From positions 1-21,719 of the IMG/VR virus record IMGVR_UViG_3300045135_001367: a stretch of DNA of 21,719 bases. One strand, given 5' to 3'. Positions 2,767 through 19,957 of the stretch are shown here, piece after piece. This stretch comes from a virus. The notes below the pieces were generated by a model. The model ran no database searches, was not told where the DNA came from, and saw only the letters and a list, made by a program, of their open reading frames with translations. Made by a program: the position numbers and the translations under genes. Numbering within the stretch: position 1 is the first letter of the stretch; each line of letters opens with the position of its first letter.

Positions 2767-3217
2767 TCCGGTAACTGCCATCGCTGGAGCAACTAAAGCC
2801 TTTACGATGGTTAAGGCAATGGTAGAAGCCGGAAAGTCTGCTGAAGATACAATGATGCAGATAGGCAAGTGGTACGGTCACGCTTCGGATGTGATGTACG
2901 CTGAAAAGAAAGTTAAAAACGTAAACCCTTTTAAGCGGGTTGTTTTTAGCGGAAGTGTACAACAAGAAGCAATGCAGGCATTTGCCGCCAAGAAAAAAAT
3001 GGAGGCTCAGCAAAAAGAGCTTCTTTCTATAATAGGCATGGTCTATGGGAAGGAAGGATTGCAAGAGTTCCGTGACATGAGAAAGCAGATTGCAAGAGAG
3101 CGAGCAGATACGATCTATCGCCAGCAAGAAGCAAAAGAGAAAATGCTTGCGGGGCTTTTGGTTTTATTAGCAATTGCGATAGTGGTAGGTACAGCGATAT
3201 TTATAGTGAGCGGTTAA
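2759..3217 (+). CDS. Hypothetical protein with C-terminal membrane helix, 152 aa
   Basis: The N-terminal part (MIDPVTAIAGATKAF...) is a weakly hydrophobic amphipathic stretch. Residues ~65-130 are strongly charged and helical (EAQQKELL, RKQIARERADTIYRQQEAKEK). Residues ~130-150 form one clear transmembrane helix (GLLVLLAIAIVVGTAIFIV) ending two residues before the C-terminus. This tail-anchored layout, directly upstream of a holin, suggests a lysis accessory or virion membrane protein. I recall similar 'MIDPVTA...' proteins in marine phages, always without known function. The start overlaps the preceding small frame by 8 bp; the Shine-Dalgarno sequence is weak. Confidence 0.75.
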   Translation: MIDPVTAIAGATKAFTMVKAMVEAGKSAEDTMMQIGKWYGHASDVMYAEKKVKNVNPFKRVVFSGSVQQEAMQAFAAKKKMEAQQKELLSIIGMVYGKEGLQEFRDMRKQIARERADTIYRQQEAKEKMLAGLLVLLAIAIVVGTAIFIVSG

Positions 3218-3424
3218 ATGACACCAGCAGAAGAGGCATTAAAGCGTATCGAAATACATCAAGCAGAGTGCGAAATCCTTCGTAAGTCTATTGACGATCG
3301 GTTAGATCGTATCGAAAAAAGACTAGACGATGGCGGCTTACAGTTCAAAAGACTTGAGCGCATGATTCTTGCTAACAGTTTGTTGATCGTGGGTGTGCTT
3401 AAAGGTGCGGAGTACTTTACATGA
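3218..3424 (+). CDS. Small coiled-coil/membrane protein next to holin, 68 aa
   Basis: Begins immediately after the upstream TAA. Residues 5-48 are heptad-rich and charged (IDDRLDRIEKRLDDGG), and residues ~49-61 form a short hydrophobic segment (MILANSLLIVGVL). This layout resembles XhlA-type holin-associated proteins, which work with a holin in lysis. The gene overlaps the holin start by ATGA, so the two are probably translationally coupled. The XhlA resemblance is by architecture only, so it is a tentative label. Confidence 0.65.
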   Translation: MTPAEEALKRIEIHQAECEILRKSIDDRLDRIEKRLDDGGLQFKRLERMILANSLLIVGVLKGAEYFT

Positions 3425-3819
3425 TTGAAACGTTGATTGGCCCAGTAACGGGTCTCCTTGATAAGTTCATTGAGGACAAAGATCAGAAGGCTAAGTTGGC
3501 ACATGAGTTGTCAACGATGGCTGAACGACACGCTCAAGAACTAGCCAAGGCTCAACTAGAGATCAATAAAGTAGAAGCGGCACATAAGTCGCTTTTTGTT
3601 TCTGGATGGAGGCCAGCAGTAGGTTGGTGCTGTGTATTGGGTATGGTGGGTAACTTTATGGTTATTCCCTTCACTAACTTTGTTTTGGCTTTGTTAGCTG
3701 TAGATGTAGTTATACCGCTGATTGACTTAGAGACTATGATGCCTGTATTGATGGGTATGTTGGGATTAGGTGCAATGCGTTCGTATGAAAAAACTAAGGG
3801 CGTATCGAGGGAAAAGTAA
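3421..3819 (+). CDS. Holin, 3-TM gene-transfer-agent type
   Basis: 132 residues. Residues 1-58 are a charged amphipathic helix (DKDQKAKLAHELSTMAERHAQELAKAQ). Next comes the family signature GWRPAVGW (62-69), three hydrophobic segments (about 66-83, 84-101, 104-119) and the conserved closing motif RSYEKTKGV (120-128). This matches the 3-TM holin family described for gene transfer agents and many marine phages. Holins form inner-membrane lesions that time host lysis and let endolysin out. The start overlaps the previous gene (ATGA) and the stop abuts the next start. No endolysin gene is recognisable in the window. Confidence 0.85.
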   Translation: MIETLIGPVTGLLDKFIEDKDQKAKLAHELSTMAERHAQELAKAQLEINKVEAAHKSLFVSGWRPAVGWCCVLGMVGNFMVIPFTNFVLALLAVDVVIPLIDLETMMPVLMGMLGLGAMRSYEKTKGVSREK

Positions 3820-6800
3820 ATGGCTAGACGACCAAGAACAGGGCTATTAACAAACTACAAGGTTGCTCCTAAGACACCATCTACTGTTGTTGGCCGCCCC
3901 GCTACGCCTGTAAAAAAGAAAAAAGGTAAGGCTCCAGAACAAACCTATACAACCCAAACAACAGGAATGTTGTCTCCTGTAGCTGTAGCGCCTGCTGTAT
4001 CAACCGGCAACATTACAGGACGACCTGTTGCTACTCCTTCTAAACCTGCACCACCCGTTAAGCCATCGCCTACTACACCAACACCTCCAAGTGGATATGT
4101 TCCTATTAATTTAGGTAACTTAACTGGGCCAAGCGAATCTGAACTTGCTACGCCTCCCAAACAAATGCCTGGTGAAACTGGGCCATTTGACCCTAATGCT
4201 GAAGCGCCAGTTCCAACACCAGCCCCAGATGAGTATTCAGAGGTAGAACTTCCTCCGCCATCTGCGCCAGAAGAAGCCGAAGCACCTCCACCTACACCGC
4301 CCCCACCACCTCCGCCTTCAGAGCCAGAGGGTGTTACTACCTTTACATTCTTTGAGGGTGTTGAGCGTGGTGATGCCAATCCTAATGCCCTGTATGCAAG
4401 AGGTGAAGCCACGCAGGTAACAGAGGCTGAACTACGTGAGTACTTCAATGCTCAGGGTTCTGGGATGCTCAAACAAGCCTTTGGTGACTTTGATAACTAT
4501 CTTGCTTATATGACTGAGCGGGAGCAGTTAATTCAGTCTGGTGACTACGATGTAGGTAACTGGGATGAAGCTACTGGAGGATTGACTGAAGATCAGTTAA
4601 TGATCCTTGAGGGTGATGACCTTACTCAGTACTCCGATACCGATCAGGATGCCTATACAGAAGCGTATGGTCAACGGATGCAGGAGCAATCAGCCGCATA
4701 CGATAACTGGGTTAACTCCGAAGCTAATCAAGCACTCCTAGCTAAGTATGGCGTTGGCTCTACCATCTATAACAACGATGGTGATAAGTATGAGTGGAAC
4801 GGTTCTGCCTATGTAAAGACAGTTAAACAAGATCAAGCGGGTCTTGTTGACTATGTAAAGATGGGCATTGTTACTGCAATGGGCATTATGACGGGTGGTG
4901 CAGTATCTGCTGTTGCTCCGTCATTAGGCACTGTTGGCTCTTCTGTTGTAAGCAATGCTATTACCCAAGGAATTACTACTGGCTCTATAGATCCTGATGA
5001 GCTTTTGCAAACAGCCGCCACAGCAGGTTTTAGTCAAGCGCTTAATCAGGTTATTGGCCCCGAACTTAAAGAAGCTTTAAACGGCTTAGATATTTCAGAA
5101 ATAACTGGCATTGAAGAACTAGACAACGTTCTTAATGCAATGGGGCAAACAGCTATCCGTCAAGCAGTATTTGATGGCGAACTAGACATGGAAGGCATTG
5201 TTGCATCGGGATTGCTGACTGGTGCTCAAGAGGTTGTTGAGTTTTTATTTAGCGACCTTGCTGGGCAACAAGCAATTTCTGAAGAGCAACAGCGAGAGCT
5301 AGAAGAGCGATTTGCAGAATACGCGGCTATTGTTGATGAAGACACGATGGCTGAAGTTAACAGAGTCATGGGAAATACTGTTAACGAAGCTATAGCCACA
5401 CAACAAAACGAAGCAATGCGTAATCAGCTTCAAGCTTTAGCAGGAAACTTACAGTCTGTTTATGAGCAGGCTTATGACGTATCGCCTCAACCTAGCGGCC
5501 CTTCTTTAGAAGACTTTATGGCTAGTTCAGTTGATGATTCAGATTCAGAGCTTGCAGACACTACGGCTGATTTAACTACTGACACAACTGTTCAGCCTGA
5601 ACCTATGGCAGAAATAACAAACCCATTTGAAGGCAATGAGTTAATCAATGGCGTTTATTACAACGACGCTGGATTTCCTGTAGGCGTCAGTCCAGATGCT
5701 ACACCTGAGCAAATTCTTGAGCAGTTTGTTAATGACAAAAACGCATGGACTACAGCGTCTGGCGTTTCTGCTCATGGCTTACCTGATGACGCTCTAGCAA
5801 TCTTAATAGGCGATACAGTATCAGCAGATGGAACAACCGAAAGTCTTCAGGTGTTAAGCGATCTTTTAAAAGCCAACAATTTAGTTTTGGCTCAAGATTC
5901 CGCAGGTGCCTACATATTAATTTCGGGATCTAGTGATGTAACATCAGGGATTCATTCAAGCATTGATCAGGATGCTTTGTTAAACCTTGAGTTTGTTGGT
6001 GATCAACAATTTGTGCCACCACCCACTTCTTCAGAAAACAATCCTCTTTTAGACCCCTCAGACACAAGTGATGTTGCTTCAGAAATACGAGATATTTTGG
6101 TTGATATTCAAGAGGCTCCAGAAACTCCTTTAGAGGTAGAGGTTGAGGTAGAGCCGCTTGATTTTGAAGAGCAACCAGAGGTAACGCCTGAGCCACCACT
6201 TGAGCAAGAACCTATTGAGCCTGTAGAGCCTATTGAACAAGAGCAACCACAGCAAGAGCAAGGTGAAGAGGGTGCGCCCACCCCAACGCCAGTACCTACA
6301 GATCAGCCCGTACCAACACCTGTACCTCCGGCTCCAAGCCCTGTGCCTGCTCCAGCACCAGCACCTGCTCCCGCTCCAATGCCAGCGCCTGCTCCAGCGC
6401 CAGATAGAACTGCGCCACAGCAACCATTAGAAGCTCCGCCTGAAGGCTTACTAGGAGGTCTTCCTGCAACTCCGCCGCCTGCTGAAACGCCTGCAACTCC
6501 GCCTGCGCCGACTACTGAACCAGTTCGCCCTGTAGAGCCAGGATTAGAAATACCAACTCAACCAGTACAACCTGTTGAGCAACCGGCAGAGCAACCTGTA
6601 GAACAGCCTGTAGAACAGCCGCCAGAGGAAGTTTCGATTGTAGAAAACTTGTTCCCTGAGTTTTTCCCGCCGGCCACTCCAGAAGATCAAGTACCATTTA
6701 TGCCCCCAGAAGTTTCTTTGCCAGAAATGCCTAGTGCGCCAGAAGAAACACCAACAGGCGAAATTACTTTAGAAGATCTATTAGAAGAAACAAAAACAAC

Positions 6801-11502: not shown

Positions 11503-12720
11503 ATGGCTAAGTTTTCACAGCAGTTTTTACGGGCAATGACTCAGCCCTCATATCAAGAGGGTTTGTTTACTGCCGCTAAAGAGTTAGGCGGTTTGCGTGG
11601 TCGTCTTAAAGAAGAAGAGCGATTAAAAGCAGAGCAAATTGCAGAAGAGCAAAGAAAGCGGGGTGTTACTGGCGGTCTTTTAGGCTTACAGCAAGCTATA
11701 GCTCAAGGCGAAGACCCATCAGAAGCTATAGGTTCGCTTGTTAATTTGGGCGCTACAGCAGAGCAAGTTGGTCAAGCACAGCAAACAGGAATGCAAAGAA
11801 GAGAAGAATTTCTTGCGGAGCAACAAAGGCAGCGAGAAGAGCAAGTAAGGAAAAACCTTGTTATTGCAGCGCAAACAAAAGCAACTAGCATGGGCAAAGA
11901 GCAACCTTTTAAAGATGCTTTAGCTACAGCTAGTGCAGAGGAGCTTCGCAAATACATCATGACCGATGTGGAGCCTAAGATTTCTATATTAAGCCCAGGC
12001 GCGGTAGCGATAGACGCGGAAGGCAAGGTTCTTTATAAAAATCCGTTTAAGCCAGCAGCGCCTAGAGTGCCATCAATAAAGACAGAAAAAACAGATAATG
12101 AAATTATTGTTCTTACAGATGGTGTAGAAACCAACAGAATAAAGATTAATAAAGGCGAATCAGAAGCCGCTGAAAATGCGCGATTAGATGTTGCTTACAA
12201 AACCGGCCAACTAATGCAAACGATTACAGACGCAAAAGAGGCGGTTTTAACAAGGTCTGGAACTGGAGAGCTTGTTGGGGGAGTTACTGCTAGTCTTTTG
12301 CCTGGATCTCCAGCCTATGAAATAACAAACGCTTATTACAACACCATTAGAGGGCAAGAGGCGTTTAGGGAAATTGACGAATTAAGAAAGTCTGCACGAG
12401 AGTATGGATCAACAGGAACAGGCTTAGGTCAAATTACTCAAATCGAATTTGGTGCATTGCAAGGAAACTTGGCTGGCTTGTCATCCGGTCTTAGCGACGA
12501 ACTCCAAATAAAACAGCTTACCAAAATTGAAAACAACCTAAAGGTTTTAAGTCAGTTAGCTCAAGGTGAGTCAATTGTTGATGTTGTTGATTGGAATAGT
12601 GAAACGTATACAAATCTTGGATACCTCAAGGATGGCGATGACCTCTTCTTTTATCCACAAGGGCCGTCAGGCAAAGAGCTAAAGTACAACAGAGCTACCG
12701 ATAAGTTTGAGGAGCAGTGA
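11503..12720 (+). CDS. Probable virion/ejection protein 2, 405 aa
   Basis: Starts two bases after the previous stop, with GGAG at 11492-11495. The N-terminal ~130 residues are charged coiled coil (RGRLKEEERLKAEQIAEEQRKR; RREEFLAEQQRQREEQVRK). Residues ~190-230 look like a small beta domain (NEIIVLTDGVETNRIKI). Residues ~283-353 hold a pattern I have seen repeatedly in marine phage virion proteins: a helix ending in 'ELRKSAREYGSTGTGLGQITQIE', then 'LQGNLAGL'. No catalytic residues are evident. It lies in the middle of the candidate ejection trio. Confidence 0.7.
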   Translation: MAKFSQQFLRAMTQPSYQEGLFTAAKELGGLRGRLKEEERLKAEQIAEEQRKRGVTGGLLGLQQAIAQGEDPSEAIGSLVNLGATAEQVGQAQQTGMQRREEFLAEQQRQREEQVRKNLVIAAQTKATSMGKEQPFKDALATASAEELRKYIMTDVEPKISILSPGAVAIDAEGKVLYKNPFKPAAPRVPSIKTEKTDNEIIVLTDGVETNRIKINKGESEAAENARLDVAYKTGQLMQTITDAKEAVLTRSGTGELVGGVTASLLPGSPAYEITNAYYNTIRGQEAFREIDELRKSAREYGSTGTGLGQITQIEFGALQGNLAGLSSGLSDELQIKQLTKIENNLKVLSQLAQGESIVDVVDWNSETYTNLGYLKDGDDLFFYPQGPSGKELKYNRATDKFEEQ

Positions 12721-12721
12721 A

Positions 12722-14464
12722 ATGACTAGCGAAGAAAGACGTAAGCGTCTTGCTCAGTTGCAAAGCGGTAGCGTTGCTCCGGTTGAAGAGGTAGAGCCAG
12801 AAGCTCCTCTGGACTCATCAAATGCTCGCAGAGAAAGGCTCAAGGTTATCCAGTCTAATAGCGCCTTAGCCCGTGAAAAACGCTTAGAGCGAGATCCTAC
12901 AGCCTTTGAGCGAATTGTCAGTGAGCCTTTTGGTCGCGCTGTAGAAAGACAGCAAGCAATATCAGAGCGTATGGGCGAAGGGTTTAGGGAGCTAGACTTT
13001 CTAGACCGCGATCCGATGCGCCCTTATGACCCTTCATTTGGCACTGACGTGCCTTCTGTTCTCGTTCAAACAGCAACCAACCCTATATCGCTTGCCTTTG
13101 ACATGGCGGGAAACGCTCTGCTGTTAGGCGCAGAAGAGGCCGTTAGCCTTGTTCTTCCTGATGAAATGGAAGAGGGCATGAAAAAACAAATGATGCAGTT
13201 TATGCAAACTGATATAGGGCAAAGGGCTATTGCGGCTATGACCTCTGGTGCAGAGGCTTGGGAGTCTTTTTCAAGAGCCTATCCAAATGAAGCCGCAAAC
13301 ATTGCCGGTGGTATGGATGCTTTTTTTGCTACGCCCACCAGAGTCATCAAAAACTTTAATCCTGATCTAAGGCCGGTAAAGGTTGAAAAGATTGGGCTTC
13401 GCAAGGTTGATAAGCCAATGGAAGGCATTGATAAAGATGTCTACAACATTGCGTATTCAAGGCCGAGCGGAAAGACCAAAGAGCAAGCAAAACTAACAAC
13501 CGGCCCTGAAGGGTTACTTAGAACTCAAAAACAACTCGCAACTGACGATCAGTTGGCCGTTGTTGATGAGCTTATTGCTGCTGGCGTTCGAGGCAACAAA
13601 ACACTTGTTGAGAATCTCATAGCAACAGATCAGTACCTTAATGCATTAGATGATTCGCTAATTAAGATGGCGAGAAGAAGAGAGATACCCACTGGGCCAA
13701 AGGAGCCGCCAATTAGGGTAAGGGTTGACAGACTTCGCGAAAATCTCAACCAATCCATTGACGATATGATTCAGCAAAACCCCGCAATATTTGAAAGCCC
13801 TGCCGCAGTCAAAAGGATGCAAACCTTGGTTAATCAGTATATGGCTAACCTTTCAAAAGAGGGGAATACCATTGAGGGCCTTATAAACGCACGACGTAAA
13901 CTTAACAGTGACTTAGAGCGCATGGGCGCTGACGTAGCAGGAACCAAGCTAAACGTAAACTCTATGGGTGGTGTTGCGATTAGAAGAGCCGTAAACAAGA
14001 CGATTGGCGAAGAAATGCCAGAGTCGTTAAAGATTAATGAAAAGATGTCTCGTATTCTTTCTGTTCAAGACAATATGGCAATAAAAGCGGCTGAAGAGGC
14101 TGGTAATTTTCTTGGTAGATACATTCAGCAACTTGGTCTTGATAGACTTGTTGGCGGTACGGCGGGAAGTATTTTGATAAGTGGTATTCCTGCGCTGGCT
14201 TATAGTGTGGCGGTCTCCCCTATTGCCCTTATCCGAAACGCTATGAAGGCAGAGATTCCTGCTCGAGGCAGAGCAAAAGTTAAGTATGCTCTTAGGGATG
14301 TTAAGGATCAGTTTAACAAAGCCCTAAAAGACCTCGCTAAACGAGATCCCCAAGCGGCTAAAGAGTTGCTGGCTCAAAAAGCAGTTGTCTATACGGCGCT
14401 TGATGCCGCCGCACAGAAGCTAGAAAACGAATATAAAGAGACTGTTAATCAAGATGATTCTTAA
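12722..14464 (+). CDS. Probable virion/ejection protein 3, 580 aa
   Basis: I chose ATG 12722 over the in-frame TTG at 12707 because GAGGAG lies about 8 bases upstream of the ATG and the start then clears the previous stop by one base. The first ~75 residues are charged (EERRKRLAQLQ, ARRERLKVIQ). A hydrophobic patch lies at ~117-145 and a hydrophobic segment at ~478-503 (GSILISGIPALAYSVAVSPIALI); the tail is charged helix. Third of three large unrecognised proteins after the nozzle, in the place of P22 gp16. A membrane-active C-terminal segment would fit an ejection protein, but this is inference. The gene end overlaps the convergent methyltransferase by 20 bp. Confidence 0.7.
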   Translation: MTSEERRKRLAQLQSGSVAPVEEVEPEAPLDSSNARRERLKVIQSNSALAREKRLERDPTAFERIVSEPFGRAVERQQAISERMGEGFRELDFLDRDPMRPYDPSFGTDVPSVLVQTATNPISLAFDMAGNALLLGAEEAVSLVLPDEMEEGMKKQMMQFMQTDIGQRAIAAMTSGAEAWESFSRAYPNEAANIAGGMDAFFATPTRVIKNFNPDLRPVKVEKIGLRKVDKPMEGIDKDVYNIAYSRPSGKTKEQAKLTTGPEGLLRTQKQLATDDQLAVVDELIAAGVRGNKTLVENLIATDQYLNALDDSLIKMARRREIPTGPKEPPIRVRVDRLRENLNQSIDDMIQQNPAIFESPAAVKRMQTLVNQYMANLSKEGNTIEGLINARRKLNSDLERMGADVAGTKLNVNSMGGVAIRRAVNKTIGEEMPESLKINEKMSRILSVQDNMAIKAAEEAGNFLGRYIQQLGLDRLVGGTAGSILISGIPALAYSVAVSPIALIRNAMKAEIPARGRAKVKYALRDVKDQFNKALKDLAKRDPQAAKELLAQKAVVYTALDAAAQKLENEYKETVNQDDS

Positions 14465-15443
14465 TCGCATGGCCTATTAGCTCTGGTATTTGCGGCACTA
14501 CCGCATTACCTAAGCATTTAAGTCTGTGTGATCGAGAGGGAACCCCATTAGCCACTCGACCCACGTCGGGTTCAGTCTCCCAGATTCGCCCTTGAACTCC
14601 ACTGAGTCGGGTAAGGAGTTGGTTTCTGGGTTTCTCCCCGTCTTCGCCATCGTTTCTGGTTTTCTCGCTCCCTTGTAATCCCTCGCGGCTGGGGTAGGCC
14701 ACATTTTTACAGCCTTGGATAGCGTGTTCTGATTGGCTGTGTCCATGTTCTTCCAGTCTGAATTCATTGGTGTCGGCCAGTAACTCCCTATGTGTCTCAC
14801 CTCGTCTACAAGATTGATTGAAGACTGTCCCGTCTCCTTGCTCTTCGCTCCCTGAGACCCGTTGAATGCAGCTGGCGTCCTCCAGAAGTGAGGCCGACTG
14901 TACCTCTCCTGCATTGAGGGAGCGCCCTGATTCGCTGTCGCTGTTGGGGTAGGCAATAATCCAGACCCTATCTCTGTGATGGTGGGCGCCAATCGCGGAA
15001 GCTGGTATACAGTGCCATTCCGCATCATACCCGATCGCGGAAATGTCTCCGAGTACTCGCTTAAACCAATCTCCCCGGTCTCCGTTAAGCAGGTTTGTGA
15101 CGTTTTCAAAGATAGCGTACCTGGGTCGAAGCTCCCCAAGAAGACGGGCGCACTCTGACCACAATCCACTGCGCTCGCCTTCAATACCTGCCTGTCTTCC
15201 AGCGGTTGAGATGTCTTGGCAGGGGAATCCTCCTGTGATGACATCAACTCCAATTCCGTCTGTAGCCAATCTGTCTGCTGTGATTGTTCTAACGTCGTCA
15301 TAAATTGGCACCTCCGGCCAGTTCTTCCGTAACACCTTTTGCGCGTATGGGTCTATTTCACAAAAAGCTACTGTTTCAAAGCCCGCTCTCTCTAATCCAA
15401 GCGTAAAGCCACCTATACCAGCAAACAAATCAAGCACTCTCAT
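14445..15443 (-). CDS. dcm: C5-cytosine DNA methyltransferase, 332 aa
   Basis: Transfers methyl from S-adenosylmethionine to cytosine C5 in DNA. All key motifs are present. Motif I is DLFAGIGGF (5-13) and the acidic SAM loop is FCEID (27-31). Motif IV is GFPCQDIS (72-79) with nucleophile Cys75. Motif VI is ENV (113-115), motif VIII is HHRDRVWIIAY (~155-165), and motifs IX-X are RVANGVPSRSHRLKCLGNAVVP (~296-317). The region ~166-290 is the variable target-recognition domain. No restriction enzyme is nearby, so it is probably an orphan enzyme protecting phage DNA or altering regulation. It follows the NinG-like gene by two bases with only a weak Shine-Dalgarno sequence. It contains a second long open frame in +1. 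Confidence 0.93.
   Translation of the reverse strand: MRVLDLFAGIGGFTLGLERAGFETVAFCEIDPYAQKVLRKNWPEVPIYDDVRTITADRLATDGIGVDVITGGFPCQDISTAGRQAGIEGERSGLWSECARLLGELRPRYAIFENVTNLLNGDRGDWFKRVLGDISAIGYDAEWHCIPASAIGAHHHRDRVWIIAYPNSDSESGRSLNAGEVQSASLLEDASCIQRVSGSEEQGDGTVFNQSCRRGETHRELLADTNEFRLEEHGHSQSEHAIQGCKNVAYPSREGLQGSEKTRNDGEDGEKPRNQLLTRLSGVQGRIWETEPDVGRVANGVPSRSHRLKCLGNAVVPQIPELIGHAIKNHLD
14510..15301 (-). CDS. Overlapping +1-frame ORF nested in the methyltransferase gene, 263 aa
   Basis: Runs 263 codons without a stop, wholly inside the methyltransferase gene (over its residues ~48-311), and ends in TAG. It starts with ATG preceded by GGAGGT at an 8-base spacing, a near-ideal ribosome binding site. 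The protein is not random-looking. It has SPAKTS (26-31, opposite the enzyme's GFPCQDIS), a 'LSLKTSQTCL' segment, 'SETFPRSGMMRNGTVYQLPRLAP', two LPTPTA/WPTPAARDYKG motifs and a C-terminal 'LNPTWVEWLMGFPLDHTDL' (opposite motif IX). From memory, these motifs recur in a group of phage proteins annotated as hypothetical or as methyltransferases. Function is unknown. It could be a genuine dual-coded partner of the enzyme, or a conserved shadow of its motifs. Confidence 0.55.
   Translation of the reverse strand: MTTLEQSQQTDWLQTELELMSSQEDSPAKTSQPLEDRQVLKASAVDCGQSAPVFLGSFDPGTLSLKTSQTCLTETGEIGLSEYSETFPRSGMMRNGTVYQLPRLAPTITEIGSGLLPTPTATANQGAPSMQERYSRPHFWRTPAAFNGSQGAKSKETGQSSINLVDEVRHIGSYWPTPMNSDWKNMDTANQNTLSKAVKMWPTPAARDYKGARKPETMAKTGRNPETNSLPDSVEFKGESGRLNPTWVEWLMGFPLDHTDLNA
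15310..15315 (-). promoter_or_regulatory. Internal ribosome binding site for the nested ORF
   Basis: Read on the minus strand this is GGAGGT, 8 bases before the ATG at 15301-15299. It lies inside the methyltransferase coding sequence (codons for Pro-Glu-Val). It is a stronger match to the anti-Shine-Dalgarno than the sequence before the methyltransferase's own ATG, and it is the main evidence that the nested frame may be translated. Confidence 0.55.
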
Positions 15444-19219: not shown

Positions 19220-19957
19220 ATGATCGTAGCTAGTTTTAGTGGCGGCAGATCAAGTGCCATGATGATAACTCAGATGGATTTATCTGATGTGACCGTCATA
19301 TTTTGTAACACCGGAAAAGAAATGCCTGAAACACTGGACTTTGTAAGAGATTGCGAAGTTCAGTGGGGCGTTCCCATTACTTGGCTGGAGTATAGAAGTA
19401 AGCGCGAATATGAAGTCGTTAACTATGAGACTGCCAGCAGAAACGGCGAGCCTTTTGAGCAGCTTATCGTTGACAAAAACTATCTGCCAAACATGGTGGC
19501 TAGATTTTGTACTAGCGAACTAAAGGTCTTAACGATTGAGCGATACTTAAAAGATCAAGGGATCACCGATTGGGAAACTGCTGTAGGAATACGGGCCGAT
19601 GAGCCTAGAAGAGTCGCAAAGATGCGACAGAAAGAAGGCTATCTAACGCCTTTAGCCGACAAGGGAATCACATCTAACGATGTTATCGAGTTCTGGAAAT
19701 CTCAAAAATTCGACTTAAACCTTCCTGTATCTGGCTTTTATTCAAACTGCGATCTGTGCTTTCTAAAGGGATACGGGATAAAACAGTCGCTAGTGAATGA
19801 AAATCCAAGCTTAGCCAATTGGTGGGCGGGTCAAGAAGAAAAAATAAACGCAAGGTTTAGATCTGATCAGCCAGCATACAAAGACATGATTGCTGTTTCA
19901 GGGACTCAAACCGATCTCTGGGGATATGAAAGCATAGAATGCTTTTGCGGTGATTAG
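19220..19957 (+). CDS. PAPS-reductase-like ATP pyrophosphatase (PP-loop), 245 aa
   Basis: Follows the previous stop by five bases. PP-loop SGGRSSA at 7-13, 'VIFCNTGKEMPETLDFV' (26-42), RFCTSELK (95-102), GIRADEPRR (123-131), a Cys pair CDLC (177-180) and a C-terminal CFC (241-243). This is the adenylyl-activating fold of PAPS reductases and DndC-like enzymes. The Cys set (97, 177, 180, 241, 243) could hold a Fe-S cluster or zinc. Phage homologues are common and usually of unknown role; sulfur or nucleotide modification of nucleic acid is a fair guess. True assimilatory sulfate reduction seems less likely without partner genes. Confidence 0.78.
   Translation: MIVASFSGGRSSAMMITQMDLSDVTVIFCNTGKEMPETLDFVRDCEVQWGVPITWLEYRSKREYEVVNYETASRNGEPFEQLIVDKNYLPNMVARFCTSELKVLTIERYLKDQGITDWETAVGIRADEPRRVAKMRQKEGYLTPLADKGITSNDVIEFWKSQKFDLNLPVSGFYSNCDLCFLKGYGIKQSLVNENPSLANWWAGQEEKINARFRSDQPAYKDMIAVSGTQTDLWGYESIECFCGD

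Follow-up and report, generated by a model that had tools for sequence, protein, structure and literature searches.

We propose that a 263-codon open reading frame, nested in the +1 frame of a C5 cytosine methyltransferase gene in the window (the whole stretch of viral DNA analyzed here, 21,719 nucleotides), is a real and separately initiated gene. Its product, beta, would pair with alpha, the protein of the overlapping frame, as the small and large subunits of a C5 cytosine methyltransferase made of two chains. In this enzyme the catalytic domain, with motifs I-VIII, and motif X would come from alpha, whereas motif IX and, presumably, target recognition by the PTP modules would come from beta. 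An active enzyme would form when both chains assemble, as has been reported for M.EcoHK31I. We consider this explanation, taken as a whole, to be quite probable. Our computations show that the beta frame is under coding constraint, that its start site recurs, that the motifs are divided between the chains and that modules are exchanged; we infer the translation of beta, the assembly of the two chains, the need for both and recognition by the modules.

The alpha chain (332 residues; positions 14445..15443, minus strand) matches PF00145 (7.5e-54) and phrog_363 (8.2e-82), and has motifs I, IV (PCQ), VI (ENV), VIII and X together in one chain. The beta ORF (14510..15301, minus strand) begins with an ATG (15299-15301) at base 143 of the alpha gene, that is, in its +1 frame, and both its position and its frame are those originally predicted. 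The ATG is preceded, at a distance of 8 bases, by a Shine-Dalgarno sequence, GGAGGT (15310..15315, minus strand; a match to GGAGGTG). Only GGGA is found 5' of the start of alpha, and the site of beta is the stronger of the two, as had also been claimed. Two motifs of the nested protein can be placed against alpha: SPAKTS (15209-15226) lies opposite alpha motif IV, GGFPCQDIS, with the catalytic Cys (15207..15233), and FPRSGMMRNG (15014..15043) lies opposite alpha GYDAEW, directly ahead of the motif VIII region, HHHRDRVWIIA (14952..14984), all on the minus strand. The phrog_1008 profile matches the window beta (7.4e-33) and all 57 of the aligned beta relatives. Near the pair there is also a gene resembling phosphoadenosine phosphosulfate reductase (19220-19957 of the window), and a similar gene is found at L167, from Phage C72C1 (3171-3845). 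The last 20 bases of alpha (14445-14464) overlap the 3' end of a converging ORF of 585 residues (12707-14464).

Conserved alpha residues together with codon bias could leave few stops in the +1 frame, in which case the nested ORF would be a mere shadow of the enzyme gene and would not be translated. When synonymous codons were permuted within alpha, with the protein and its codon usage kept, the stop-free run of 280 codons in the +1 frame of the window was matched by 1 of 1000 shuffles (null mean 94). For the window alone the p value is thus just 0.001, which favors the shadow, and the chance of about 3 in a million given by the original prediction is too strong for a single sequence. It is the relatives, beyond the window alone, that make an overwhelming case against a chance open frame. 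Among 131 distinct methyltransferase relatives, the +1 frame was open beyond the synonymous shuffles (p<0.05) in 129, and the +2 frame was significant in about 5%, as chance predicts. The loci L085-L161 were retrieved with the alpha protein alone, so that this set was not selected for beta; the +1 frame was significant (p<0.05) in 48 of its 50 distinct members. Stop codons in the nested frame of close relatives, named beforehand as a sign against a gene, did not occur, and the frame is open in the relatives.

The control was a search for all C5 enzymes in 16 bacterial genomes in which a pair occurs, and 30 loci were analyzed. None of the 20 canonical C5 enzymes of these genomes had a long +1 ORF (p 0.09-0.97), contrary to what a shadow would predict, whereas among the 10 paired enzymes the +1 frame was significant (p<0.05) in nine and matched the beta profile in all. 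Two canonical enzymes, L250 and L251, showed a weak beta-like similarity (21-22 bits) in the +1 frame opposite motifs IV-VI, which speaks for the shadow to the extent that part of the N-terminal resemblance is of this kind. We set aside a comparison of pairwise +1 identity with synonymous shuffles, since shared ancestry raises the +2 frame above the shuffles too.

Selection was assessed in 57 independent pairs with an OLGenie-type count written for this analysis, a kind of test that had been suggested with the original prediction. NN/NS was 0.66 in the +1 frame (bootstrap CI 0.60-0.71) and 1.21 in the +2 control (1.16-1.27). Changes that alter alpha are therefore rarer when they also alter beta, and the purifying selection is present in the +1 frame and absent from +2, which a shadow does not explain. 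Since SN/SS was saturated in the whole-gene count, raw region-wise proportions were used in its place. The proportion of alpha-synonymous, beta-altering differences was 0.69 in the part of alpha 5' of beta, 0.35 over motifs IV-VIII and 0.45 in the variable region; it fell to 0.15 at motif IX, where the constraint on beta is strongest, and rose again at motif X, to 0.51. Alpha evolves almost neutrally in the variable region (NN/SN 0.71 to 0.95 and NS/SS 0.61 to 0.87, depending on the alignment), where beta is constrained (NN/NS 0.55-0.63). That beta is conserved where alpha varies again runs against a shadow.

The alpha codons that lie opposite MMRNG of beta are fixed as beta demands, which is also at odds with a shadow. 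Alanine is encoded there by GCG in 102 of 113 cases, as opposed to about 25% in alpha codons 1-45; for tyrosine, TAT is used 83:21 as opposed to 25:49, and for aspartate, GAT is used 98:15 as opposed to 128:72. No codon bias was seen for the glutamate opposite MMRNG. We regard the coding overlap of the two frames as near certain, and the nested ORF is very probably a real gene; a shadow ORF is already contradicted, and we give it next to no weight.

The start site of beta also recurs. Between alpha codons 42 and 70, 51 of 131 loci have a beta-frame ATG with a Shine-Dalgarno match of at least 5 bases, where 14.6 would be expected (a 3.5-fold excess); the commonest position is alpha codon 47, as in the window. 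In about 60% of the relatives no ATG at the expected position has a strong site (at least 5 bases), and these relatives have weaker sites or other starts; as evidence that beta has its own start, the recurring site is thus supportive and not universal.

The enzyme frame had been predicted to contain every C5 motif. This needs correction, as canonical motif IX was not found in the alpha chain of the window, and occurs only in the nested frame. The C-terminus of beta, LNPTWVEWLMGFPxGWTDL, gives the beta profile its best local alignment with canonical C5 enzymes, at their motif IX; the motif is short and the match modest (P 0.0045 in one hhalign comparison). In the window this putative motif IX reads LNPTWVEWLMGFP (beta residues 243-255; 14537..14575, minus strand), and motif X, LGNAVVPQI (14487..14513, minus strand), is in alpha. 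Motif IX in the +1 frame with motif X in the alpha frame is the arrangement of 71 of 80 genome loci. Others differ. At L226, LNPDWVEWLMGFPIGWTE is in the alpha frame directly 5' of motif X, and the +1 ORF stops ahead of it. Gordonia phage CheeseTouch and Rhodococcus phage ReT1v-2 have motif IX as well as motif X in the alpha frame, and only the PTP repeats stay in the +1 ORF. Two further phages, Samy of Streptomyces and ArV1 of Arthrobacter, have an alpha that stops past motif VIII, and the +1 frame goes on alone with the repeats, IX and X, which speaks against a shadow; in these phages the nested protein is more than a shadow translation of the enzyme, the alternative against which it had originally been set. 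These arrangements bear out the assignment: motif IX of the enzyme can be written in either frame and, in the window, it is written in beta.

Beta lies nearly always +1 to alpha, and a +1 shift would complete the enzyme in Samy and ArV1. Programmed frameshifting could thus fuse alpha motifs I-VIII with the beta repeats and motif IX into a single chain. However, a separate ATG with a Shine-Dalgarno sequence recurs, and beta is constrained over motifs IV-VIII, far 5' of any useful shift site. Moreover, with motif X in the alpha frame in most genome loci, frameshifting needs a second shift. We find it very unlikely that the two frames are joined in this way.

A different possibility is that beta is real but is no subunit of the enzyme, being instead an overprinted regulator, a counter-defence protein or an inhibitor. 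Consistent with this, beta residues 1-110, with SPAKTS and PRSGMMRNG, do not match any known methyltransferase part, and neither Pfam nor NCBIfam has a family for beta. Yet at least part of an alpha gene accompanied beta in all the loci examined, and no full-length beta without any alpha gene was found when sought in about 80 genome loci. Beta also carries motif IX, which shifts between the frames among the relatives. A role outside the enzyme therefore seems unlikely to us, and it is likely that beta is a subunit carrying motif IX. The original prediction allowed for either a regulator or a partner of the enzyme; a partner is preferred because the nested chain carries motif IX, and a regulator is the poorer fit. 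In keeping with alpha as a C5 enzyme, the structure predicted by AF2 for the relative L226 matches M.HhaI (Z 23.8). The pLDDT at motif IX is near 60 in this model, and we do not rely on the packing of the motif there. Beta alone, modeled by AF2 with 57 relatives, gave no confident fold (pLDDT 55, pTM 0.26), a point against our reading, and a PDB sequence search with the beta profile returned nothing up to E 10.

We read beta as the small subunit of a two-chain enzyme by its likeness to M.EcoHK31I, a two-polypeptide C5 methyltransferase for YGGCCR. In that enzyme, the large-chain gene reportedly also encodes the small chain, in an alternative frame, much as beta is nested in another frame of the alpha gene. 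The window pair shares its division of motifs: alpha, too, has I-VIII and X without IX, and beta, like the small chain of M.EcoHK31I, carries IX (PMC3404938). As regards this division the window pair would work like M.EcoHK31I, to which we liken it by motifs and not by sequence. There are two differences. The window pair appears to be an orphan; it lies between ninG- and ninB-like phage recombination genes, and no restriction enzyme was recognized among the window ORFs tested. In addition, the predicted TRD of M.EcoHK31I was placed in the large chain (PMC3404938), whereas the pattern of selection in the window would put recognition in beta. M.AquI is also a C5 enzyme split into two chains past motif VIII, but its small chain holds X together with IX (PMC3404938), and so resembles the arrangement in Samy and ArV1; it differs from the window, where X is in the large chain.

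Beta has candidate target-recognition modules in a region of x-TP repeats (14672..14959, minus strand), opposite the stretch where alpha is nearly neutral. The window has the repeats LLPTPTA (14939-14959), FWRTPAA (14867-14887), YWPTPMNSDWK (14750-14782) and MWPTPAARDYK (14672-14704), all on the minus strand; beta proteins usually have one to three PTP units, and up to five. Such modules are common to divergent enzymes. The unit PTPxARDYKGARKPETMAKTGRNPxTNSLPDSVEF turns up again in enzymes with alpha identities down to 37% and, conversely, L049 and L110 are 94% identical over alpha residues 1-165 and 20% identical in the unit region. These comparisons show PTP modules being exchanged between enzymes in the manner of target-recognition modules. 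No conserved TRD was found in alpha, and the alpha stretch opposite the PTP units was left disordered by AF2 in a relative (pLDDT 30-45). That exchangeable cassettes stand opposite an alpha stretch that is unconstrained, and disordered in the model, suggests that beta, and not alpha, reads the target. On balance, we favor target recognition as the role of the PTP modules.

Phages and prophages from many bacterial phyla commonly have the overprinted arrangement. With the beta profile, the alpha/beta pair is found at about 80 loci in genomes of bacteria and archaea; the nested arrangement also occurs in about 130 viral loci. Its hosts include alphaproteobacteria, Paenibacillus and other Bacillota, Synergistaceae, Planctomycetota, Chloroflexi, Actinomycetota and an Alkanophagales archaeon MAG. 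Of 398 genomes drawn from a single phylum, 24 matched the beta profile, and plasmid searches gave few matches. We lean, with some reserve, toward the broader view that the two-frame, two-chain methyltransferase is a pan-bacterial class of phage enzyme, in which the overprinted chain would carry target-recognition modules swapped as cassettes while both frames stay open, and in which motif IX has moved between the frames in relatives.

In phage collections the nested ORF is annotated as a hypothetical protein, as a DNA methyltransferase or as 'g49 internal gene'. The last of these is gp50 of Paenibacillus phage Diva, a homolog of the window beta that is likewise nested in a cytosine methyltransferase gene, but was deposited as hypothetical, with no proposed function. 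The label of phrog_1008, DNA methyltransferase, conceals that the beta proteins matching it lie inside a methyltransferase gene, in another frame, and lack the catalytic motifs. Literature searches for overprinted phage methyltransferases returned nothing relevant; the kind is known from one enzyme, and its breadth and the module swapping appear to be undescribed in the literature searched. In bacteria and phages it is rare for a long, same-strand overprinted gene to be established with clear purifying selection. A beta-type gene has 200-300 codons, is conserved between phyla, and is missed by gene callers or labeled methyltransferase; if our reading is correct, these genes would form one of the largest and most widespread overprinted families in prokaryotes. 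They would also explain a large group of phage C5 enzymes that seem to have no target-recognition domain and no motif IX. The annotated gene alone, if recoded synthetically, is predicted to lose the second chain and to give an inactive enzyme. The alpha/beta overlap should also be a clean system in which to follow the joint evolution of two frames.

Several loci depart from the simple pair. In termite-gut Synergistaceae MAGs (L205, 2258-3600; L220, 1974-3200), alpha is broken by short, stop-containing insertions immediately past the catalytic PCQ and near its start (FSGI/GG), and the remaining alpha and the whole of beta are open. At L242 (1143-2790) and L209 (2083-3900), alpha is interrupted between motifs III and IV by an HNH endonuclease domain, and a further short insertion breaks the frame between the P and the C of PCQ; these insertions look like a homing element or its scar. 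Two E. coli prophages (L298 and L299, 3368-4129) have one and the same copy, with stops in each frame that interrupt alpha and beta at one spot. Tandem alpha/beta pairs are found at L195 (2723-4650), where the second alpha is degenerate, with motif X alone recognized, and the second beta frame is long and open; here beta may be outlasting alpha. Finally, the chromosome of a Roseovarius MAG (OX638333.1) holds five copies of one prophage-type alpha/beta pair (L188-L192).
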